The notes under the pieces were generated by a model. It was not told where the DNA came from. It saw only the letters and a list, made by a program, of their open reading frames with translations, and made no database searches. Shown piece after piece: positions 636-23,061 of a stretch of DNA of 34,219 bases. The translations under genes and the position numbers were made by a program. Each line of letters opens with the position of its first letter. The first letter of the stretch is position 1. The stretch is from Eubacterium sp. (GTDB taxonomy: Bacteria; Bacillota; Clostridia; Lachnospirales; Lachnospiraceae): contig JAILMQ010000107.1 in assembly GCA_024692605.1 (NCBI GenBank), positions 1 to 34,219 of the forward strand, in the 5' to 3' direction.

Positions 636-3059
636 TTATTTCACTTTCACTTTGAACGTCACCGTCTTAGTTCCGGATGCTTTATAATTGCTGTTTCCTA
701 AAGCCTTGACTTTGACCTTTACCTTGTAGGTACCCTTCTTCAGTCCTTTCTTCACCGTGACCTTGCCGGTGGACTTGTTGATCTTGAAGTACTTCTTGAA
801 AGACTTCTTTCCCTTCTTGGCGGATGAGAGCGTATAGGTCTTCTTATCCTTCGCGTCCTTCGTGAACTTGATCACCTTGGTAACGGCAAGCGTCTGCGCC
901 TTTTTCTTCAGCTTGGCATACTTGACCGTTCCGGTCTTCGGCTTCATGGTCAGCGGGTTTGCGGCTTTGTTGATCTTGAAAGTCAGGCTCTTGCTTCCCT
1001 CGTAGTAATCGCCTTTAAGCGTGACCTTCGCGGTCGCTGTCCCAGCATTCGTGTTGCCGGAATATGTGACCGTGTAGTTATCTGCTGAAAGCGTCTCGCT
1101 GGCATTTGCCACAGTGACCTTTGGCGTTATCGCTTTGCCTGTGTAGGTATAGGATGTACCCGCAAGGCTGATCTTGCTGACCTTGAGCAGCGGAGCAACG
1201 ATTTCCTCAGTGCCGCAGATACTGCACTTCTGATAGATCCGTCCGTCGGCTGTCGGAGTGGCTTTCTGTATTTTCTCCTCCCATTGATGTCCGGCGCATT
1301 CGAACACAGCACATACAGCTAACTCTGTTGCGCCGCAGGTATATTCGTCTTCATCAGATAGTAGATCTTCCGAAGGTGTCTGGACATAACCGCTGTCTCC
1401 GAATACTCCCTTGTAGAAACCTTTGAACTTATAACCCTCAGCAGGTTTCGCCGTGAACTTGACGGTACCCTCCGGTGAATTGAAGTTCATTGCCGTCACA
1501 TCCTGCTGACTGACGTTTACATTCGGTGTCTCGACATCAACAGTGCCGCATTCCTTATTCTTCGGATTGGAATCATTGTAGATCCCGATCGCCATTTGCG
1601 CATACCATTCTGCATATACCGTGGTATCTGCATTGACCGAGGAAGAGAAGTTATATTCAGTCGTAAGTTCTTCGTCTGAGCACCATCGCTTGAAGACCAG
1701 ACCATCCTTTGTCGGGTCGTCAGGCTTACTGGCCCTTTCTCCCGGGATGACATACTGCGGATCGACGCTGCTGCCGCCGCGGGTATCGAAGGTGACCTTG
1801 TTCTTCTTGATCACATTGAATTCTACAGGACCGACAGTGCCGGTATATCCCTCAGATTCCTTCCCGATTGCAGAGACACGGTATGTGGCAGTCTTGCCAT
1901 CATCTAATCCGAAGGTATTGGATGTGTAATCCTCCCAGCTGTTATCGCCTGTCTTCTTCTCGTATTTTAGGGTATACTTGCGTGCCGCGAGAGTTGTCCA
2001 GCCGATTTCATCTTCAAACCGCACTTTCGTATCAGGAACTACGGTGCCATCCGTTGTTACGACATAATAGTTTCCGCCGAACGTAGTGGTCGCTCCGGCA
2101 CCGTCCATCATCATGCTGTAGCCATCTTCCGAGAGATCAGATGTAGGTGTAGGTTGGTAAACAGTAAAATCCCATTGCGACATATCCCACTTGTAAATTT
2201 GCGTTGGATAAATGTTCGAGTCGTAATAGAATCTGTATCTGCCCGAAACATCTATTACATCGACTTCACTCAGCTTCCAGGTGTCGTTCTCCCATTGATC
2301 ACCTACTGTCACCTCGGCAGTCCATCTGCCGGTCTTTCTGTCTTCATCATTCCCGACATATGTTGCTTTGAAATACTTGCTCCCATCCTGTTCCGGATTT
2401 TTGATAAAGAAAATAACTTCATTAACTCCCCAGTTGTCCGAGGCGTCAATGGAAAAAGTCACTTTGTCTCCAACGGTCGCCTTCCTCTCATTGCTTTCGT
2501 TCCCTGTGATTGTCACATTCAGAGTACTGGAATCTACGACCGGATCTTCAAAGTCTTTTTCCAGGCTGGATCCGTGCACAGTAAAATCCCATTGCGACAT
2601 ATCCCACTTGTAAATTTGCGTTGGATAATTGTTTGAGTCGTAATAGTATCTGTATCTGCCCGAAACATCTGTCACATCGATCTCGTCCAGTTTCCAGGTA
2701 CCATTCTCCCACTGGTTGTCAACTGTCACCTCGGCAGTCCATCTGCCGGTCTTTCTGTCTTCATCATTCCCGACATATGTTGCTTTGAAATACTTGCTCC
2801 CATCCTGTTCCGGATTTTTGATAAAGAAAATAACTTCATTAACTCCGCGGTTGTCCGAGGCGTCAATGGAAAACGTTATTGTATCTCCGATGGTCGCCTT
2901 CCTCTCATTGCTTTCGCTCCCTGTGATTGTTACATTCAGAGTACTGGAATCTACGACCGGATCTTCAAGATCCTTGTCTGATTCAGCAAACACCGTCATC
3001 GGCATCATCGCAAACACCATCAGTATGGCCATCAGTATCGGGAATAATCTCTTCTTCAT
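636..3059 (-). CDS. Secreted multi-domain surface protein with duplicated N-terminal domain and InlB B-type repeat
   Basis: The protein has 807 residues from the ATG at 3059, chosen because AGGAGG lies 7 bases upstream; an in-frame ATG 8 codons earlier lacks this support. Residues 1-25 are a signal peptide (basic MKKR, hydrophobic core, VFA cleavage site). Two nearly identical domains of about 130 residues begin near residues 31 and 170. A Listeria-Bacteroides (InlB B-type) repeat lies around 424-490, with the FDTRGG opening and a closing VYAEWY. A small CxxC segment (KCSICG) and an Ig-like/MBG-type module follow. The last 110 residues are very lysine-rich, typical of Lachnospiraceae exported proteins. 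There is no LPXTG motif, so wall attachment, if any, would rest on the basic tail. A role in surface binding is a family-level inference; the ligand is unknown. Base composition is visibly GC-richer than in the core genes after 3401, which suggests separate acquisition. Confidence 0.85.
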   Translation of the reverse strand: MKKRLFPILMAILMVFAMMPMTVFAESDKDLEDPVVDSSTLNVTITGSESNERKATIGDTITFSIDASDNRGVNEVIFFIKNPEQDGSKYFKATYVGNDEDRKTGRWTAEVTVDNQWENGTWKLDEIDVTDVSGRYRYYYDSNNYPTQIYKWDMSQWDFTVHGSSLEKDFEDPVVDSSTLNVTITGNESNERKATVGDKVTFSIDASDNWGVNEVIFFIKNPEQDGSKYFKATYVGNDEDRKTGRWTAEVTVGDQWENDTWKLSEVDVIDVSGRYRFYYDSNIYPTQIYKWDMSQWDFTVYQPTPTSDLSEDGYSMMMDGAGATTTFGGNYYVVTTDGTVVPDTKVRFEDEIGWTTLAARKYTLKYEKKTGDNSWEDYTSNTFGLDDGKTATYRVSAIGKESEGYTGTVGPVEFNVIKKNKVTFDTRGGSSVDPQYVIPGERASKPDDPTKDGLVFKRWCSDEELTTEYNFSSSVNADTTVYAEWYAQMAIGIYNDSNPKNKECGTVDVETPNVNVSQQDVTAMNFNSPEGTVKFTAKPAEGYKFKGFYKGVFGDSGYVQTPSEDLLSDEDEYTCGATELAVCAVFECAGHQWEEKIQKATPTADGRIYQKCSICGTEEIVAPLLKVSKISLAGTSYTYTGKAITPKVTVANASETLSADNYTVTYSGNTNAGTATAKVTLKGDYYEGSKSLTFKINKAANPLTMKPKTGTVKYAKLKKKAQTLAVTKVIKFTKDAKDKKTYTLSSAKKGKKSFKKYFKINKSTGKVTVKKGLKKGTYKVKVKVKALGNSNYKASGTKTVTFKVKVK
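2161..2551. repeat. 391-bp direct repeat, copy 1, inside the surface protein gene
   Basis: This stretch recurs at 2578-2968 with an offset of exactly 417 bases (139 codons) and only scattered differences. It encodes the second copy of the N-terminal domain, since the gene is on the minus strand. Near identity at DNA level points to a recent duplication or ongoing gene conversion. Confidence 0.9.
2578..2968. repeat. 391-bp direct repeat, copy 2, inside the surface protein gene
   Basis: Partner of the repeat at 2161-2551, encoding the first (N-terminal) copy of the duplicated extracellular domain. The reading frame is kept because the offset is a multiple of three. Confidence 0.9.
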
Positions 3060-3085
3060 GGCAAAACCTCCTAACAAAGGCAATT

Positions 3086-3126
3086 ATTAAAAACCCGCAG
3101 AAACCCATGCGGCAGACTGCTGCATG
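3086..3126 (-). promoter_or_regulatory. Candidate transcription attenuator in the leader of the surface protein gene
   Basis: On the minus strand the leader can form CCGCA/TGCGG (3108-3112 with 3095-3099) followed by GTTTTT, a short Rho-independent terminator 30-50 bases before the start codon. An alternative stem, CATGC-A-GCA with TGC-C-GCATG (3118-3126 with 3106-3114), uses the same 3106-3112 bases, so the two structures exclude each other. That is the arrangement of an attenuator or expression-platform switch. I could not match the upstream part to a known riboswitch class. Confidence 0.4.
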
Positions 3127-3168
3127 AGACTTCTCCGGCTTTATCCTCTGACCGCTATAGTTATTATT

Positions 3169-3197
3169 ATTGTAGCATGGAAACACCGGATTGAACA
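3169..3197 (-). promoter_or_regulatory. Putative promoter of the surface protein gene
   Basis: Minus-strand TACAAT at 3169-3174, preceded by TG at the extended -10 position, with a weak -35 TGTTCA at 3192-3197 and a 17-base spacer. Transcription would start near 3162 and give a leader of about 100 bases containing the attenuator-like hairpins. Confidence 0.4.
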
Positions 3198-3400
3198 TCG
3201 GCATTGTTTGTCATTTTGTACAATTACGTCCTGACATCTAAATGACCGTCTCAACACCCGACATCTAAATAGCCTACTCAACCCTCCGGCAAAATGACCT
3301 TTAGATAAGTTCCCGAGGAGTGTTTTTCAAGCTTCCTGAGTGAGCATCATTGATGGGTCTGAATCGACAAATGGCTTGTTTTCAAGCCTTTCCGCGCCTC
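3198..3400. other. Intergenic stretch with IS-end-like repeats and a small hairpin
   Basis: No gene is seen. Two imperfect direct repeats starting GACATCTAAAT lie at 3233-3258 and 3260-3284. The core recurs inverted as TTTAGAT at 3300-3306. Clustered repeats of this kind occur at the ends of IS21-family elements, but no transposase gene is present, so this would be a remnant only. A hairpin GGCTTG-TTTT-CAAGCC at 3373-3388 lies just after the rlmD stop and may weakly terminate rlmD. Confidence 0.35.
3233..3284. repeat. Two imperfect 25-26 bp direct repeats
   Basis: Copy 1 at 3233-3258 and copy 2 at 3260-3284 both begin GACATCTAAAT and both end CTCAACxCC-like, spaced 27 bases start to start. 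They resemble multiple terminal binding sites of an IS21-type element, but no other part of such an element is visible. Confidence 0.55.
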
Positions 3401-4816
3401 TTACCTGTCGGCACGTGACATCAATACCGCGCACTCCACATGCATGCTTCGACTAAACTGATCAAACACTGAAAACTTTTCCAGATTGAATCCATTTGCC
3501 ATAAGTATCTTCAGATCTCTGGCAAGGGTGGCTGGATCACAGGAAACATATACCATCCGATTAGGTTTTACTTTTATTACTGTATTAAGAAGTTTTTCAT
3601 CGCAGCCTTTTCTGGGCGGATCCACCACGATAACATCCGGTACTTCTTCATATGTATCGTCAGTTCCCTTCCCGCTTAAAAGTTCAGTCGCCACTTCCTC
3701 AGCTTTTCCAACATAAAACTTAGCATTTTTAATAGCATTCAGATCTGCATTCTGCTTTGCATCCTGTATAGCCTGTGGTACTATCTCAACACCTATTACC
3801 TTCTTTGCATTTTTTGCAAGAAAAAGTGATATGGTACCTATTCCACAGTACATATCCCATACGGTTTCATTTCCTGTCAGATTTGCATATTCCAGGGCTC
3901 TGCTATAGAGGCGATAAGTCTGAACCGGGTTCACCTGATAGAAGGACTGCGCTGAAATCCTGAACTGAACATCTCCGATGTAATCAGTGATATATTCCTG
4001 TCCCCATACCGGAACGGTTTCTTCTCCGAGAATCTTGTTTGTCTTTTCTGTATTAATATTCGCAACAACCGATTTGAGAATGATAGCATCCTTAGTTTCC
4101 GCTTTCGAAAGAGCTTCATTAATACACGAAACCAATTCCTCGCTAAACTTCATCTTCTTATTGTTGATGATAACACATACCATCAGTTCACCGGTTTGAA
4201 ATCCAACCCTTGTAAGAACATGTCTAAGAAAGCCTTTACCGGTTTCTTCATCGTAAACGCTTATTTTGTTTTCATCACACCATTTCTTTATGGCAGCGAT
4301 TATATATCTATTTATTTCATGACCGATCATGCAATCTTCAACAGGAATAATCGAATGACTATGCCCGGCATAGAAACCAAGAACAGTCATACCGTCTTTA
4401 TCCTTACCCACCGGAAACTGCATCTTGTTTCTGTAACGCTCCGGAGAGCTTCCAAGTCCTACAACCTCCTCAAGATATTCTTCAGGATTATCAATCCCTC
4501 CTATTCTCTTCAGACAGTTAATTACTCTGTTTTTTTTCAGTTCCAGCTCCGCCTCATAACCGATATGTTGCAAAGTGCAGCCACCACACTGTCTCGATAC
4601 AGGGCAGGCCGACTCTACTCTGTTATGTGACTCCGAAATAATCTCCTCAACTCTTCCAAAGGCATAATGCTTCTTCACTTTTACTATTCTTGCCTTAACC
4701 CTGTCACCCACGGCTGAATCCTTCACAAAAATAGCCATTCCGTCATAATGTCCGATTCCGGAACCATCATCAGTTACATCTTCTATTTCAAGTTCAATAA
4801 AATCATTCTTCTTCAT
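3401..4816 (-). CDS. rlmD: 23S rRNA (uracil-5-)-methyltransferase, RlmD/RumA family
   Basis: This SAM-dependent enzyme forms 5-methyluridine in 23S rRNA (U1939 in E. coli RlmD; Gram-positive RlmCD homologues can modify two sites). The N-terminus is a TRAM-type beta-barrel (about residues 1-60). An iron-sulfur cluster motif CPVSRQCGGC follows near residue 70, with a fourth Cys in VEDCMIG. The C-terminal half is a Rossmann methyltransferase domain with WDMYCGIGTISLFLA, VDPPRKGCD and the catalytic VSCDPATLARDL motif. About 471 residues is normal for the family. I chose the ATG at 4816 (GGGA upstream) over a TTG two codons earlier. It is transcribed alone behind the terminator at 4834-4870. Which uridine is modified cannot be told from sequence. 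Confidence 0.93.
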   Translation of the reverse strand: MKKNDFIELEIEDVTDDGSGIGHYDGMAIFVKDSAVGDRVKARIVKVKKHYAFGRVEEIISESHNRVESACPVSRQCGGCTLQHIGYEAELELKKNRVINCLKRIGGIDNPEEYLEEVVGLGSSPERYRNKMQFPVGKDKDGMTVLGFYAGHSHSIIPVEDCMIGHEINRYIIAAIKKWCDENKISVYDEETGKGFLRHVLTRVGFQTGELMVCVIINNKKMKFSEELVSCINEALSKAETKDAIILKSVVANINTEKTNKILGEETVPVWGQEYITDYIGDVQFRISAQSFYQVNPVQTYRLYSRALEYANLTGNETVWDMYCGIGTISLFLAKNAKKVIGVEIVPQAIQDAKQNADLNAIKNAKFYVGKAEEVATELLSGKGTDDTYEEVPDVIVVDPPRKGCDEKLLNTVIKVKPNRMVYVSCDPATLARDLKILMANGFNLEKFSVFDQFSRSMHVECAVLMSRADR

Positions 4817-15280: not shown

Positions 15281-15481
15281 ATGTTTGAAAATGCAGAAAA
15301 GGAATATAGTGATATATTTGACAAGCAGCGTCCGGTCCACGACGGGGACGCTTTTGAAGCACGCCATCCTAAGATGTCCCGGGAAGCCCGGGCAAAAATA
15401 TTCGCCCCATTCGCAGCCCTGAAGGGCTTCGAAGAGGCGATTGAAGAAACTAATTCTAACTTTGTGCAACACCAGCAATAA
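15281..15481 (+). CDS. Small polymerase-associated protein (YolD-like neighbour type)
   Basis: 66 residues. AAGGG lies 9 bases before the ATG. The core [20 protein letters not shown] resembles the MSxxxRAAQFAPFAALTGY motif of small proteins commonly encoded next to Y-family polymerases in Firmicutes (YolD-like group). The molecular role in such pairs is not established; control of or binding to the polymerase is a reasonable guess. Its last 26 bases overlap the 3' end of the convergent gene at 15456. Confidence 0.75.
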
Positions 15482-16289
15482 CTGAAACTATTATAATGAG
15501 AAGATAGATTATAAGACTTATAAGTCCGATAATAAATCCTGCCTTTGCCTTGCCACTTTCATTACCGGCATTCATAGCTGACTTTGAAAGAATCATTCCT
15601 ATCGGTGCAAGAATAACTCCACAACAGAAAAGTGATATGATTGAACATACCAGGCCGGCTGTTGCTTTTCCATCTTCCGGTTCTGCGTAATTATTGTCAT
15701 ATGGTGTCTGACCATATGCACTTGATGTTCCGGGTGCTGTATTATATCCACCAGGTGCTGCTGTTTGACCATATGGCTGCTGGCCGTATGACTGCTGGCC
15801 TGCCGGCTGACCATAAGCATTTTGTCCTGTTGGCTGGCCGTATGGATCCTGTGCTGGCTGACCATATGTGTTTTGTCCTGCCGGCTGGCCGTATGGATCC
15901 TGTGTTGGCTGTCCATATGCATTTTGTCCTGTTGGCTGGCCGTATGGATCCTGTGTTGGCTGACCATATGCATTCTGTCCTGCCGGCTGGCCGTATGGAT
16001 TCTGTGCCTGCTGGCCATATGGATCTGCTGCCGGCTGGCTATATGGATCCTGACTTCCATAAGTCTGATCCAGTGAACTAACTGGCTCTGTTGCAGTAGG
16101 TTCTGCAGCTGATGGTTCTCCAGCGTATGGATTTACCGGCTCTGCCGGCTCTCCGGCATATGGATTTGCCGGTTCTGCTGGTTCTCCGGCATATGGATTT
16201 ACCGGCTCTGCAGGTTCTCCGGCATATGGATTTACCGGTTCTACCGGATCACCACTATATGGGTTATTGTTCATCTGATTATCATCCAT
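15456..16289 (-). CDS. Repeat-rich membrane protein with C-terminal DUF4190 domain
   Basis: 277 residues. Residues 8-62 are five 11-residue [11 protein letters not shown]-type repeats. Residues 95-162 are four 17-residue [17 protein letters not shown]-type repeats. Both are Pro/Gly/Gln/Tyr-rich and probably disordered. The C-terminal 70 residues hold two membrane helices ([21 protein letters not shown] and [21 protein letters not shown]) of the DUF4190 type. The N-terminus would face the cytoplasm or the outside depending on helix orientation; I cannot decide. Function is unknown. GGAGG lies 8 bases before the ATG. The stop overlaps the end of the convergent small gene. Confidence 0.82.
15804..16007. 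repeat. Four tandem 51-bp repeats in the DUF4190 gene
   Basis: Four 17-codon units, differing at a few bases (GQPA/GQPT, QNAY/QNTY), encode the Tyr-Gly-Gln-Pro repeats. Such arrays can change in copy number by slippage. Confidence 0.85.
16104..16268. repeat. Five tandem 33-bp repeats in the DUF4190 gene
   Basis: Five 11-codon units encode [11 protein letters not shown]-like repeats. The first unit ([11 protein letters not shown]) and last ([11 protein letters not shown]) are the most diverged, as expected at the edges of a tandem array. Confidence 0.85.
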
Positions 16290-16376: not shown

Positions 16377-16772
16377 TCAGATTGGAAATATATTTCTGAG
16401 TATTCCATATATCACCAAAAGTCCCAGATATATAAACAGTATTATCTCATTAGTTTTATTGATCTTTTTCGTTGATTCATTCAGATAAAAGAAATAGATT
16501 ACTTCATAAACTATGTATGGAAATGTAATAAAAAGAAATCTGTTATATTCAAAGGCTCTTTTAAAATCAAGCTTAACTGCGGACTGCATCATTCTTGTCA
16601 TTCCACAGGTAGAACATTGCACACCAAAAATCTCGTGGATATAACATTTAAATGAAAAATGTGTATACTTTAATACAAAATAATAGACCACACCGGCAAA
16701 GAATACTATAGCCGTGTCCATTATAGTTCTGTTTCGTATTTCAGCAGGTGTATAGCCCTTGACCTTAGCCAT
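16377..16772 (-). CDS. DUF2752 membrane protein at the end of the ATP synthase operon
   Basis: 131 residues from the ATG at 16772, which overlaps the atpC stop by 8 bases (ATGGCTAA); an upstream in-frame ATG lies within atpC. The core IFGVQCSTCGMTRMMQSAVK matches the DUF2752 signature (C-x2-CGxTR type), flanked by three hydrophobic helices (about residues 18-36, 76-95, 106-126). The family's function is unknown. Overlap with atpC suggests co-translation with the ATP synthase. The last codons are followed by an 18-base tandem copy of the gene end with a second in-frame stop. Confidence 0.8.
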   Translation of the reverse strand: MAKVKGYTPAEIRNRTIMDTAIVFFAGVVYYFVLKYTHFSFKCYIHEIFGVQCSTCGMTRMMQSAVKLDFKRAFEYNRFLFITFPYIVYEVIYFFYLNESTKKINKTNEIILFIYLGLLVIYGILRNIFPI

Positions 16773-17178
16773 TAAAACCACCATCTTTAACCTTGAGTCT
16801 TGCTACTGCTCTCTTAAGACTGGCTTCTGCCAGAGTATATTCCCTGACACTCTTCTTCTGAAGCATTGCCTCTCTTGCTGCAGCTTCCTTGGCCTTTACT
16901 CTTTCTATATCTATTTCATCCGGCCATTCCGCAGAGTCCACAAGAATAAGCACCTCTCCGTCCTCTACTCTCATCATGCCATCTGATACGGCAGCATCAT
17001 GCCACTCACCATCTTCAGTCTGAAACTTAAGCCAACCGGGAATAATGGCCACCACCACGTTCTGATGCATGGCAAGAACACCATAATCCCCGTCAAGAGC
17101 AGGAACTATTAAAGAAACCATTTCTCCTGAATAAAAGGAGTTATCTGCTTCAATTATCCTACAATTAAAAGTTTTCAT
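16765..17178 (-). CDS. atpC: F1 ATP synthase subunit epsilon
   Basis: 137 residues, standard length. The N-terminal beta-sandwich has FYSGEMVSLIVPALDGDYGVLAMHQN, the conserved G-DYGVL-xxH segment that contacts gamma and the c-ring. The C-terminal helical hairpin begins near ERVKAKEAAAREAM and could act as the inhibitory arm. It starts 2 bases after the atpD stop with only a weak AGGT site, consistent with coupling. Confidence 0.96.
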   Translation of the reverse strand: MKTFNCRIIEADNSFYSGEMVSLIVPALDGDYGVLAMHQNVVVAIIPGWLKFQTEDGEWHDAAVSDGMMRVEDGEVLILVDSAEWPDEIDIERVKAKEAAAREAMLQKKSVREYTLAEASLKRAVARLKVKDGGFNG

Positions 17179-17180
17179 AC

Positions 17181-18575
<1,395 letters not shown>

Positions 18576-18601: not shown

Positions 18602-19492
18602 TTACTTTCTCTTTTTCTTCTGAGCCTTAGCTCCGGCTGCAACCTCTGTAATCTCCTGGGTTATAGCTGCCTGTCTGACTCTGTTGTATTCAACCTGGAG
18701 TTCCGCAAGAAGACTTTCCGCATTCTTATTGGCGGAATCCATTGCAGTCATACGGGCATTTTGTTCAGCAGAAAAGCTGTCCACCAGTGCACCATAGATG
18801 TTACCTGCAACATAACCGGGTATAACACGGTTCAGAACCTCATCAACAGAAGGATCAAATTCGTAATGCACATCCTTCACATTTTTCTCTTCCTGCTTCG
18901 TCCAGAACTCACGCCTGTCAAAGGGCAGAAGTCTCATCATCTTAACTTCTGTCAGGAACTCACTGATCATATCACTGTATATGATACGTATCTCATCAAT
19001 CTGCTTATTGTCATACTGTTCCAGAAGTATGGAGCTTATATCACGGGCTCTTGTGAAGGTTGGATTCTGTGCTGTATATAGGAAGGACTGTTCTATGTTA
19101 TAGCCTCTTCTCTGGAAGTATCTTCTTCCGTATTCGCCTACAACATACATTTTAACCTTCTTATGCTTAGCCATCTCCTCTTCTGCAAGCTTTATAACAT
19201 TGTGGTTATATGCTCCTGCAAGTCCCTTATCGGCAGTTATTATAAGATACGCATAGGTCTCTGCCGGTTTTCTTCCGGTTTTGGGATAGAAATAACGACT
19301 TGTTATATCTATCTCCGTCTGGAATATACGACGAATCTCGTGCTCCTGCATATCAAAGAAGGGTCTGGTTTTCTCCAGTTCCTCCTTAGCCTTTCGCATC
19401 TTTGTGGAAGAAATAAGATACATGGCATTTGTAATCTTCTGAGTGTTCTTTACACTGCCTATTCTGTTCTTAATCTCTTTTGTATTAGCCAT
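18602..19492 (-). CDS. atpG: F1 ATP synthase subunit gamma
   Basis: 296 residues. The rotor shaft shows the conserved N-terminal helix NTKEIKNRIGSVKNTQKITNAM, the central ITADKGLAGAYNHN, and the C-terminal coiled-coil segment ARMTAMDSANKNAESLLAEL followed by YNRVRQAAITQEI. Length and order fit the family. The ribosome site before the ATG is weak, and the gene lies 19 bases after the atpA stop, so translation may be coupled. Confidence 0.97.
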   Translation of the reverse strand: MANTKEIKNRIGSVKNTQKITNAMYLISSTKMRKAKEELEKTRPFFDMQEHEIRRIFQTEIDITSRYFYPKTGRKPAETYAYLIITADKGLAGAYNHNVIKLAEEEMAKHKKVKMYVVGEYGRRYFQRRGYNIEQSFLYTAQNPTFTRARDISSILLEQYDNKQIDEIRIIYSDMISEFLTEVKMMRLLPFDRREFWTKQEEKNVKDVHYEFDPSVDEVLNRVIPGYVAGNIYGALVDSFSAEQNARMTAMDSANKNAESLLAELQVEYNRVRQAAITQEITEVAAGAKAQKKKRK

Positions 19493-19511: not shown

Positions 19512-21263
19512 TTATACTTCGTAACTCTCTTTGAATTTAAGTGCCGCATCAATGATAGCCTTTTTATCATCATCTGATAACTGTCCGGTAGAATCAATCT
19601 GCTTGCACATAGCATCCTCTTCCTCATGGAAGTACTCCAGAAGTTTATTTCTGAAATCGGAAATGTTATCAACCGGAATATCCTGCATAACATGTGCAGT
19701 TGCCGAAACCAGCATAATAACCTGCTCATGAAGCTTGAACGGATTATTCTGAGGCTGACGCAGAAGCTGCATAAGCCCCTGTCCATAAACAAGCTGTTTC
19801 TTTGTTGCATCATCCAGATCACTGGAGAACTGTGTGAATATCTCCATCTCACGATACTGTGCAAGATCAAGACGAAGACTACCTGCAGCCTTCTTCATTG
19901 CCTTTGTCTGAGCCGCTCCACCAACACGGGATACGGAAAGACCGACGTTAACAGCAGGTCTCTGTCCGGCAAAGAACAGATCACTCTCAAGGAATATCTG
20001 ACCATCTGTTATGGAAATGATATTTGTTGGAATATAAGCAGAAACATCTCCTGCCTGAGTCTCAACTATAGGAAGTGCTGTAATACTTCCACCGCCCTTT
20101 TCATCTGAAAGACGCGCAGATCTCTCAAGAAGTCTTGAGTGCAGATAGAATACATCTCCCGGATAAGCCTCACGTCCCGGTGATCTTTCCAGAAGAAGTG
20201 ACAAGGCTCTATAAGCTATAGCATGCTTTGACAGATCATCATAAACTATAAGTACATCTTTACCCTTCCACATGAAGTATTCTGCCATAGCAGCACCTGC
20301 ATATGGAGCGATGTACTGAATAGGGGCTGTCTCAGATGCATTTGCTGCAACGACTATTGTATAGTCCATAGCCTCTTTCTTTTTAAGAGTTCCCACCAGC
20401 TGGGCAACACTACTTGCCTTCTGTCCAATGGCAACATATATACAGATAACTCCGTTATCCTTTTGATTAAGTATTGTATCAAGTGCAATAGCAGTCTTAC
20501 CGGTCTGTCTGTCACCGATAATAAGCTCACGCTGTCCTCTTCCAATAGGGAACATAGAATCAATGGAAAGAATTCCTGTATTCATTGGTGTGTCTACTGA
20601 CTGTCTCTCGATAATTCCGGGAGCCGCAGTCTCAACAGCTCTGTATCCATCAGACTTAATAGGGCCTTCTCCATCTATTGGATTGCCTAAAGGATTTATT
20701 ACTCTTCCAAGGAAATTATCTCCAACAGGGATACCTGCTGTTTTTCCGGTTCTGAGAACACGACTTCCTTCAGTAACATCAGTATCATCACCAAACAGGA
20801 TTACACCGATATCATCAGGTCTCAGTTCCTGAACCATTCCTCTTACACCTGACTCAAATATAACAATCTCTCCGTACATTACGGATTTGAGACCGTCTAC
20901 GAAGACGATTCCGTCTCCAACTGACTTAACATGACCTTCCTCTTCTGCTAAAACCTGAGGTTCCCACTCATGTACACTTGTTTTCATCAGAGATATCAGT
21001 TCTTCTCCGGATGAAACCTTCTCGGCTTTCATCTCTCTCAGCATTTCTTCCAGCTGATGAAGTCTTCCCTCTTTTGTCCAGTCGTACACTTCTTCTCCGA
21101 CCACAAGTTTAAATCCGTTTATAATGCTTTCGTCTTTTATAAACCGGATTTCTACATCTACCCCGTATTTTTTTGAGATAAATGCGTCTAATCTGGATTT
21201 CTGGGCAGCATCAGGTTCTGATGGAGCATAGAGTTTGGCACATAGTATTTTTTCCTCTGCCAC
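19512..21263 (-). CDS. atpA: F1 ATP synthase subunit alpha with an N-terminal delta-like domain (delta-CTD/alpha fusion)
   Basis: 583 residues, about 80 more than a normal alpha (around 502). Residues from about 83 onward are a complete alpha: N-terminal helix, crown beta-barrel with [14 protein letters not shown], Walker A GDRQTGKT at 250-257 (169-176 in E. coli, giving the offset of 81) and the C-terminal helical domain. Residues 1-80 read like the C-terminal domain of subunit delta: [50 protein letters not shown] and [10 protein letters not shown], compared with the usual LTSAxPLS..., DPSLIGG and VIDGSV...L patterns. No separate atpH lies in the operon. The start is a GTG immediately after the atpF stop with AGGAG 10 bases upstream. 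Fused domains would be present three times per F1, while only one peripheral stalk is needed. Confidence 0.93.
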
Positions 21264-21746
21264 TTAACTTTCGCTCCTTTCAGCATTATCAAGAAACATG
21301 TCATATGCTTCACTTGTACTACCTGCGAGAACAACCTTACGGGTTGCCTCTTCAACCATTTCTGTTATATCCTTCTTAGCTGATTCAACGATTGCCTGTC
21401 TCTGGTTTTCAGCATCCTTTTTAGCATCTTCAATGATCTTGTTTGCAGCTGCCTTTGCTTCAGCCTCTGCATCTGTTCGCATTGCTGCTATATCCATAGA
21501 TGCTTTCTTCTTCTGCTGTGAGATCTCGGCATCAACATTTTTCAGCTTTTCTTCATATTCAACATTCTTCTGCTCAGCTTCAGATAACTTCTGCTTAGCT
21601 GCTTCATCTATCTCTTTATAATGATCTTCTCTTTCCTGCATGATCTTTTTTACCGGCGCATATATGATAATATAAAGACCTGCGAAAAGAAGAACCACAT
21701 TAAACATATGCAGTAGAATCTGTGTAAAATCTATTCCTAATGGCAT
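21264..21746 (-). CDS. atpF: Fo ATP synthase subunit b
   Basis: 160 residues, normal length. One N-terminal membrane helix (about 9-30, LLHMFNVVLLFAGLYIIIYAPV) is followed by a long charged coiled coil (about 36-140) that forms the peripheral stalk. The C-terminus is short and shows no fused delta domain, unlike the mycobacterial b-delta fusion. It is followed directly, with no gap, by the GTG of atpA. GAGG lies 8 bases before the ATG. Confidence 0.95.
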   Translation of the reverse strand: MPLGIDFTQILLHMFNVVLLFAGLYIIIYAPVKKIMQEREDHYKEIDEAAKQKLSEAEQKNVEYEEKLKNVDAEISQQKKKASMDIAAMRTDAEAEAKAAANKIIEDAKKDAENQRQAIVESAKKDITEMVEEATRKVVLAGSTSEAYDMFLDNAERSES

Positions 21747-21795: not shown

Positions 21796-22164
21796 TTATA
21801 GGACAAATATGATCAGAATTGATACAACCAGTGCATAAAGAACAGCTGTCTCGATAAATACGACACCAAGGATCATAGTTGTTCTGATCTTACCCTCTGC
21901 CTCAGGCTGACGGGCAATACCCTCTGCTGACTTACCAACGCAGAGTCCCATACCAATTGTACCAAGACCTGCTGCTACACCGATTGAAATAGCTGCTGCA
22001 ACTGCCTTTCCTGCAGTTGAGCTGTCTGCAGCTTCCTCTGTTTCTTCTGTTGCTGTAGTCTCTTCTGCTGCATAGGATACTGCTGCAGGTACTACTGCTG
22101 AGAAAAATGCAAATGCTGCAAAGAAAAGTGCAGCTGTTATAATTGATTTCTTTAAAAGCTTCAT
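21796..22164 (-). CDS. atpE: Fo ATP synthase subunit c with signal peptide and acidic N-terminal tail
   Basis: 122 residues from the ATG at 22164 (AGAGG 7 bases upstream), against 70-90 for ordinary c subunits. Residues 1-32 are a Sec-like signal peptide (MKLLKK, hydrophobic core, SYA cleavage). Residues 33-48 are acidic (AEETTATEETEEAADS). The two c-ring helices follow: a glycine-rich helix 1 (about 52-80), the polar loop ARQPEAEG, and helix 2 with the ion-carrying glutamate E105 in VFIETAVLY. The N-terminus of c faces outside, so a cleaved signal leaving an acidic outer tail is topologically sensible. The helix-1 Gln of Na+-binding rings is Met72 here, favouring H+ as the coupling ion (inference). 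Confidence 0.93.
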   Translation of the reverse strand: MKLLKKSIITAALFFAAFAFFSAVVPAAVSYAAEETTATEETEEAADSSTAGKAVAAAISIGVAAGLGTIGMGLCVGKSAEGIARQPEAEGKIRTTMILGVVFIETAVLYALVVSILIIFVL

Positions 22165-22215
22165 TTTTTTACCTCTTTCTATTTCATTCAAATTTTATGA
22201 TCACATGGCAGAAGC

Positions 22216-23061
22216 CTAAGCTGCGGCTGCCACGTCGGTTTTCTTCTTTTTCTTTGATTTCTTTTCATGAACTTCTGATACTTCACCATAGTATATGGAG
22301 GTCAGCATCGTAAGGACATAAGCCTGCACAACTGCATGGATCAGTGTAAACAGAACACCTACCAGAACAGGAACTACAAAGCTGAGTTTGATCGTGTAAT
22401 AAACCAGCTCCGTTACAAGCGTACCTGACAGGAGTGCACAGAAAAGACGGAAGCTCATGGATATCGGAAGTGAAAACTCTTTTAGTGTAAGTCCTACTCC
22501 CTTTATTTTATTGTTCCTTATACCACCTGACATGATGAATCCATATGAGAACACACCCATGGCAATAGCTCCGTTTATATCACAAAGCGGTGCCGGAAGT
22601 GACATGGAATGTCCGGCAGTTGTGGGCCATTGCACTCCGAAAAGTTCAAAGATAGTTCCCACGAAGATGTATGATCCTGCTGCGAATACATACGCTCCAA
22701 GGACACCATTAAGATGCGGACTGTTCGTTTTGGCCAGATTGTCAAAATATCCTACCCATGTTTCAATAACTATCTGGAATTTACCGGGTACGGTTTTGAA
22801 ACGTGGTACAGCAAATATTCTTATAAGCAAAGCCAGAATAAGAAGTATGGCTGTTACTAGATATGCTGAAATAAGTGAAGGGTTCACCGTAAGTCCGAAG
22901 AAATTCATCTTATTATCTTCATGAAGAACGGCATCTCTCATCACGACTTTTATACTTTCGTGATTTCCTCCTCCCCTGCTTGTGATAATACTTCCGACCA
23001 GGAGCAGTACCAGAACTATGCTCACTACTACGATAAATCTGGTTCTTTTTCCCTTGTCCAA
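22216..23061 (-). CDS. atpB: Fo ATP synthase subunit a
   Basis: 281 residues with five or six membrane helices. The essential arginine lies in MSFRLFCALLSGTLV and the following helix has IHAVVQAYVLTMLTSIYY, the two half-channel helices facing the c-ring. The DINGAIAMG motif is also typical. The C-terminus is unusually basic (a KKSKKKKK run) before an alanine tail. The start is a TTG at 23061 with AGGAG 7 bases upstream. No atpI precedes it; it is the first gene of the operon. Confidence 0.96.
   Translation of the reverse strand: MDKGKRTRFIVVVSIVLVLLLVGSIITSRGGGNHESIKVVMRDAVLHEDNKMNFFGLTVNPSLISAYLVTAILLILALLIRIFAVPRFKTVPGKFQIVIETWVGYFDNLAKTNSPHLNGVLGAYVFAAGSYIFVGTIFELFGVQWPTTAGHSMSLPAPLCDINGAIAMGVFSYGFIMSGGIRNNKIKGVGLTLKEFSLPISMSFRLFCALLSGTLVTELVYYTIKLSFVVPVLVGVLFTLIHAVVQAYVLTMLTSIYYGEVSEVHEKKSKKKKKTDVAAAA

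Follow-up and report, generated by a model that had tools for sequence, protein, structure and literature searches.

This study addressed why the ATP synthase alpha subunit of a Eubacterium sp. (Lachnospiraceae) is about 80 residues too long, and what its additional N-terminal part means for the stalk of the enzyme. The window, i.e., the whole stretch of 34,219 nucleotides that was analysed, is contig C97 (JAILMQ010000107.1) of an assembly of 2.72 Mb in 271 contigs, 89.5% complete and 5.0% contaminated. The gene in question (atpA, 19512..21263, minus strand) specifies a protein of 583 aa that matches both PF00213 (delta) and TIGR00962 (F1 alpha).

All genes of the operon lie on the minus strand, in the order a-c-b-[deltaCTD-alpha]-gamma-beta-epsilon, with Pfam matches over the cut-off for alpha, beta, gamma, epsilon, a, b, and c. 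Upstream of the fused gene are atpB (a, 22216..23061, 281 aa, PF00119), atpE (c, 21796..22191, 131 aa with a long N-terminal extension, PF00137 at residues 65-127), and atpF (b, 21264..21746, 160 aa, PF00430), and downstream are atpG (gamma, 18602..19492, PF00231), atpD (beta, 17181..18569, PF00006), and atpC (epsilon, 16765..17178, PF02823/PF00401). The GTG start of the fused gene is the next codon after the TAA of b, and ten bases 5' of it an AAAGGAG Shine-Dalgarno (SD) sequence can be read within the 3' end of atpF (21274..21280, minus strand), with an SD energy of -7.9 kcal/mol at the GTG.

A delta domain at the start of alpha

Residues 3-75 of the fused protein (21039..21257, minus strand) match positions 99-172 of the 172 positions of PF00213 with an E value of 1.4e-8 when the whole protein is searched, and residues 1-81 alone give 6.8e-10, above the curated cut-off. 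The match consists of the complete C-terminal (b-binding) domain (CTD) only, and runs straight into a normal alpha. Eleven NCBIfam models also match residues 1-81, all of them for ATP-synthase delta, b-delta, or N-ATPase-type b (best E 2.7e-8); all score below the full-length cut-offs, as is expected when a single domain is compared with full-length models. A profile built from 49 separate and full-length deltas of the same ATPase clade (171 positions, hereafter the clade profile) matched the fused alpha at positions 95-169 with an E value of 7e-19. TIGR00962 matched residues 87-581 with 756 bits against a cut-off of 484, and the alpha subunit proper comprises residues 82-583 (19515..21020, minus strand).

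A fold predicted from the single sequence of residues 1-113 (mean pLDDT 71.5) retrieved 30 PDB chains at E≤1e-3, every one from ATP-synthase entries, and those with an identifiable chain name were delta, OSCP, or b-delta. Two structure models place the end of the last CTD helix at residue 78-80 and, just past it, the alpha N-terminal helix at residues 86-96 (20976..21008, minus strand). The full-length model, built from 12 aligned sequences only (mean pLDDT 64, pTM 0.48), supports the fold of the domains and not their placement. No delta N-terminal domain, the part of delta that binds the N-termini of alpha, was found with the clade profile in the fused protein or in the three forward frames of the 1800 nt upstream. 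The window alpha carries a delta CTD at its N-terminus, and the delta N-terminal domain is absent. An earlier reading of the sequence alone had proposed such a fusion, and it is borne out by the PF00213 search of the N-terminal residues, by the NCBIfam and clade-profile matches, by the fold, and by an alpha-model match that begins at residue 87.

In the mycobacterial and Gordonia b-delta proteins (7JG5_d, 8J0S_d; available text of PMC5709465) the delta CTD is also gene-fused, but to b. The distinction from that arrangement, already drawn from the sequence, holds, as the window b ends at 21264 with TAA and the CTD is on alpha. N-ATPases are described as having no separate delta in the available part of PMC5706428, and the C-terminus of their b (TIGR03321) is weakly delta-CTD-like against the window (E 1e-4), but there too the domain is on b. 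An N-ATPase identity was rejected, as both alpha (TIGR03324, 610 bits, cut-off 750.5) and gamma (TIGR03323, 88 bits, cut-off 282) score below the model cut-offs.

The best PDB sequence match is to an engineered enzyme. According to the available text of Ueno et al. 2025 (PMC12229609), the N-terminal domain of the Bacillus PS3 delta was deleted and the CTD fused to alpha; the resulting deltaDeltaN-alpha FoF1 carried two peripheral stalks on average and three at most, with one a-subunit per stalk, had an ion/ATP ratio of 5.8, synthesised ATP at lower proton-motive force, and shed stalks on cryo-EM grids. The same text states that all ATP synthases so far have a single a-subunit, argues that the delta N-terminal domain, sitting on the three-fold axis, restricts the stalks to one, and cites natural deltaDeltaN-alpha fusions (Acidaminococcus fermentans; UniProt G4Q3K6, A0A1I2C5T3). 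Chain 9JC1_I of the engineered enzyme was matched by the window protein across the junction (phmmer E 3.5e-8) and by the clade profile (E 2.3e-18, 4-122 versus 5-124); a fold search with the full-length model listed it first (574 columns, TM 0.48). Like the window, the engineered PS3 enzyme (PDB 9JC1/9JC2) has the CTD on the alpha N-terminus, no N-terminal domain, and no free delta, and the two proteins (580 and 583 aa) align almost gap-free at the junction. However, the one is laboratory-made, with a short linker, whereas the other is natural and belongs to a different lineage. The natural fusions cited by Ueno et al. share with the window the same domain order and the missing N-terminal domain, and the window has an in-frame CTD before alpha, no N-terminal domain, and no delta in the operon. 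As this kind of protein is already known as a suggestion (PMC12229609), the window is a natural member of it in a different lineage. Abstract-level literature searching found natural delta-alpha fusions in that paper only, and the available part of a report on 62 butyrivibrio genomes (PMC4478896), for which every F0F1 subunit was reported, mentions no fusion.

Distribution and history of the fusions

Among 299 genomes sampled from the family (298 genera), at least 67 carry a delta-alpha fusion. Residues 1-121 of the window protein, used as query, matched 125 of the 299, and the operon region was obtained for 97 of these besides the window; the remaining 27 matches have an internal stop or a frame of no more than 200 aa, i.e., a separate delta. 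Three additional regions proved to be canonical operons and were kept as comparison. The 67 fusions comprise 44 of the CTD-alpha type, with frames of 576-647 codons, 20 of the full delta-alpha type, with 669-758 codons, one b-CTD-alpha, and two that are cut by contig ends. Public records contributed at least 15 fusions among the 80 loci listed; within these, CTD-alpha records include Butyrivibrio sp., uncultured Lachnospiraceae, and Ca. Geddesella, full delta-alpha was seen in Ruminococcus sp. RGIG6295 and a Eubacterium sp., and a separate delta in records of Lachnospira, Hungatella, Blautia, Mediterraneibacter, and Anaerovorax. Two actinobacterial long frames (L218, L240) were rejected as fusions, as their delta lies in a different frame. 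Samples at the class and phylum level gave 31 fusions and 3 separate deltas among 34 regions, nearly all of which had been chosen for their fused appearance. The window comes from a metagenome-assembled genome, in which a lost stop codon or a frameshift could mimic a fusion, but an assembly or annotation artefact of this sort is refuted by the recurrence of one-frame fusions in so many family genomes and public loci.

The clade profile splits the fusions cleanly. Its matches run from positions 1-7 to 168-170 in full fusions and from 79-101 to 155-171 in CTD-only fusions, and no fusion intermediate between the two was found with it. The CTD matches in all 44 CTD-only loci, the weakest with an E value of 4e-5 (L154). 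Upstream of these 44 loci (up to 1800 nt, three forward frames) no N-terminal delta domain was found, the one match (L145, E 0.6) being at chance level.

A PF00213 search at E≤10 over the window's assembly (89.5% complete, 271 contigs) found no place besides the fused gene, and the earlier claim that there is no separate delta stands for both the operon and this assembly. PF00006 detected one F-type alpha/beta pair; the other matches were another A/B-type pair (C246), a relative of 485 codons (C15), and a single weak hit. The pair on C246 (G000, 1234-3416; 465 and 610 codons) is a second ATP-synt_ab pair with the appearance of V/A-type B and A subunits. With an assembly of this completeness, contamination, and fragmentation, a second operon might be missing. 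In a genome of the same genus (G160) a fused operon (L068) is found beside a canonical one that has its own delta (L088), and a canonical delta within a second operon was seen in G004 and G120 as well. By hand count, 24 of the 44 CTD-only genomes (including G160) also carry a canonical delta, 19 (including the window's) have no other delta in the assembly, and in one (G075) fragments of delta lie on other contigs. When 19 genomes were searched directly (18 CTD-only, among them 16 of the 19 counted as delta-less by hand, plus the b-CTD-alpha genome G068), a further delta exceeded the cut-off in two, G044 and G075, and in the remaining 17 none did. The canonical deltas of the 24 genomes, and that of G160 in particular, would suit an arrangement in which the CTD is a leftover and a delta encoded separately in a second operon works in trans. 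We regard this as very improbable, given the 19 assemblies that have none and the preservation of the fused domain, which matches the clade profile at every CTD-only locus and, together with the alpha N-terminus, shows eight invariant and ten nearly invariant columns in an alignment of 22 sequences.

In a tree of 99 alpha rows, 92 formed the window's clade (29 with separate delta, 20 full, 42 CTD-only, and one b-CTD-alpha), and two CTD-only rows (L146, L154) grouped with canonical alphas. The separate-delta rows branched first, and full and CTD-only rows were intermixed within the window's clade. A careful tree of 82 rows was built after removal of L146, L154, and L115 (all long), the truncated L163, the triple fusion L148, three canonical rows, and nine separate rows that were near-duplicates; L108 and L149, cut by contig ends, were excluded from every tree and SD test. 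There the window belongs to a CTD-only clade of 20 rows (support 99/99), and the CTD-only label takes 11 changes at the fewest (bootstrap 10-12), only three of them forced by starred branches. With 26 rows, chosen after viewing the larger trees and including sister pairs, a single CTD-only clade was rejected (AU p 3e-5), as was a single full-fusion clade (AU p 7e-71), and at least six changes were forced for the CTD-only label. Five starred sister pairs in a 38-row set, also chosen afterwards, differ in the N-terminal domain (L121/L109, L134/L152, L129/L101, L103/L116, and L087/L112). The N-terminal domain has been gained or lost several times, loss being by far the likelier, and because a single CTD-only clade is rejected it has apparently been lost repeatedly. 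Together with its absence from the 44 CTD-only loci, this agrees with the sequence-only reading, to which the delta N-terminal domain had looked dispensable.

One fused group is favoured by the 82-row tree (95/99) and the 26-row tree (93/85), and an 83-row quick tree placed the window's subclade outside the group with most full fusions. With the 38 rows, neither the fused core as one clade (AU p 0.28) nor the window's subclade outside it (p 0.24) was rejected. In the broad 83-row quick tree, the fused and unfused states take at least seven changes. This tree also puts the fused alphas of several other families in the phylum in a group of their own, and because they stand apart from the window's, the fusion probably arose more than once.

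Full fusions (L083, L102, and 18 other family members; also L208 and L190) retain the N-terminal domain, and its constraint was measured on the 20 from the family. At an alpha identity of 0.74-0.78 the N-terminal-domain identity is 0.365 in full fusions versus 0.305 in separate deltas, and at 0.70-0.74 it is 0.312 versus 0.317. A decaying N-terminal domain in full fusions is not supported by this comparison.

Internal starts and the number of delta domains per F1

If a bare alpha were also made from the fused genes, the former start site of alpha would be expected to persist at the junction. Unfused alphas in separate-delta operons have a strong start, with a mean SD energy of -13.2 kcal/mol and all 29 at -6 or lower, and five canonical alphas used as a control gave a mean of -6.4, with 3/5 at or below -6. 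At the junctions of the fused genes, where the best in-frame start within 28 codons was scored by SD duplex energy, the means are -1.8 (20 full fusions) and -2.3 (44 CTD-only fusions), no better than the in-gene controls (-2.8 and -3.4), and 30 of these 64 family fusions have no start codon at the junction. Internal re-initiation yielding bare alpha is not supported in the family set by these energies. The strong SD of alpha has not been kept in the fusions, and this favours three CTDs per F1 and argues, from sequence, that every alpha carries a delta part unless it is cleaved after translation.

It is improbable that F1 is instead mixed, with one delta-alpha and two bare alphas, produced by an internal start or by cleavage, and a normal single stalk. 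Two in-frame start codons do occur near the window junction (best SD -3.3 kcal/mol), and junction SD energies of -6 or below are found in 9 of the 64 family fusions (best -10.0) and in 6 of the 31 class and phylum fusions (-7.9 to -10.5), but the strong SD of the separate relatives has been lost across the family fusions, nearly half of which lack a junction start codon altogether. Because of those six class and phylum fusions, the loss of the internal start is a result for the family set only. The sequence-only reading had envisaged three CTDs for one b dimer. Its three CTDs are favoured by the missing internal start; the single stalk was assumed, and the statement as a whole is not supported as it stood, since as many as three b2 stalks, along with three a-subunits, occur in the engineered equivalent.

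Stalk number and its consequences

In a rotary motor, the number of stalks and a-subunits sets the ions used per ATP. We propose, with a probability of roughly 0.55-0.57, that the window specifies a natural multi-stalk ATP synthase, the stalk number being inferred from the architecture. The N-terminal domain switches among the fusions would then be losses, and three CTDs would sit on each F1, one per alpha. The three-fold axis being free of the N-terminal domain, b2 stalks could bind at more than one CTD, and each added stalk would bring an a-subunit, so that more ions would pass per ATP. Such an enzyme could make ATP at low ion-motive force or, reversed, could pump more ions per ATP. No match to RnfC_N (PF13375) or PF00346 was found in the window's assembly, a weak result at 89.5% completeness, and on this account the window enzyme may equally be an ATP-driven pump.

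A single-stalk enzyme, in which one of the three CTDs binds the b dimer, the others idle or cap the alpha N-termini, and the fusion was selected for assembly or stability, appears rather unlikely, at odds well below those of the multi-stalk enzyme. It has precedent in the mycobacterial b-delta enzymes, the natural fused-delta enzymes among the PDB matches, which are single-stalk. It also accords with the full fusions, in which the N-terminal domain is under constraint, and the F1 axis should not have room for three copies of that domain; fusion alone need not, then, mean several stalks. Against it, the engineered equivalent accepts up to three stalks (available text of PMC12229609), and the domain that limits the stalks according to Ueno et al. 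is repeatedly absent from the natural fusions. Moreover, a natural two-stalk F-type enzyme has apparently been solved for Chloroflexus aurantiacus (9ITJ series), where PDB chain counts of 12 delta in 6 entries, 72 b in 18, and 6 gamma in 6 give an average of 2 delta, 4 b, and 1 gamma per entry. The Chloroflexus delta is a separate protein of 157 aa without fusion, unlike that of the window.

Further evidence against a single stalk comes from a relative in which b itself has joined the fusion. At L215 (3476-5734; Ruminococcaceae RUG13294, CADAHL010000024.1), a frame of 753 codons behind a separate b gene specifies b'-deltaCTD-alpha, with a b' that scores 22.6 bits with PF00430, below the 28-bit cut-off. 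At L148 (5629-7989; G068 contig C33), a single frame of 787 codons specifies b-deltaCTD-alpha (PF00430 E 1e-17, PF00213, and the alpha domains). Since no other b in G068 exceeds the PF00430 cut-off, b would be tied 1:1 to alpha there unless an in-frame TTG in the linker (SD -5.9) is used. Each of these forms is known from one assembly. Both would provide one membrane anchor per alpha, and if the b' of L215 is real, its anchoring of each alpha in the membrane is the strongest natural hint of several stalks.

Two other relatives (L176, 2402-4408; L179, 3965-5965) have two tandem CTDs before alpha and, 5' of the fusion, an enlarged b frame of 235 and 232 codons, respectively. They are unexplained by one CTD per stalk. 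At L154 (4468-5439; G071), a b' frame of 324 codons precedes deltaCTD-alpha, and by eye its C-terminus resembles two degenerate delta-CTD repeats, the profile match not being significant.

A large natural group shares the design with which up to three stalks were obtained in the engineered enzyme, and the sister pairs with and without the N-terminal domain make the claim of a stalk limit testable by natural comparison. To the fusions suggested before, the present data add the family-wide spread, the mixture of full and CTD-only forms, the lost alpha start, and the b-CTD-alpha and CTD-CTD-alpha relatives. More tentatively, and at somewhat less than even odds, multi-stalk F-type synthases may be widespread in gut and rumen Clostridia, having arisen by delta-alpha fusion with repeated shedding of the N-terminal domain and having, in some lineages, gone further to b-CTD-alpha and CTD-CTD-alpha forms; these would be 'low-gear' motors with several a-subunits and a variable ion/ATP ratio. 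If true, estimates of ATP yield would change for many gut and rumen fermenters.

The Fo genes of the window have features of their own. The c subunit (21796-22191) is extended at its N-terminus by about 60 residues, which resemble a signal peptide by eye, and the c frames of 14 close CTD-only relatives are 111-150 aa versus about 70-91 aa in the other compared loci. The a subunit (22216-23061, 281 aa) has an additional hydrophobic segment at its N-terminus, and, to judge from BLAST strength, the window's subclade seems to have an Fo type of its own in its a, c, and b subunits. Adjoining the operon, positions 15456-16289 specify a protein with many short P/Y/G/Q-rich repeats followed by a hydrophobic C-terminal part.
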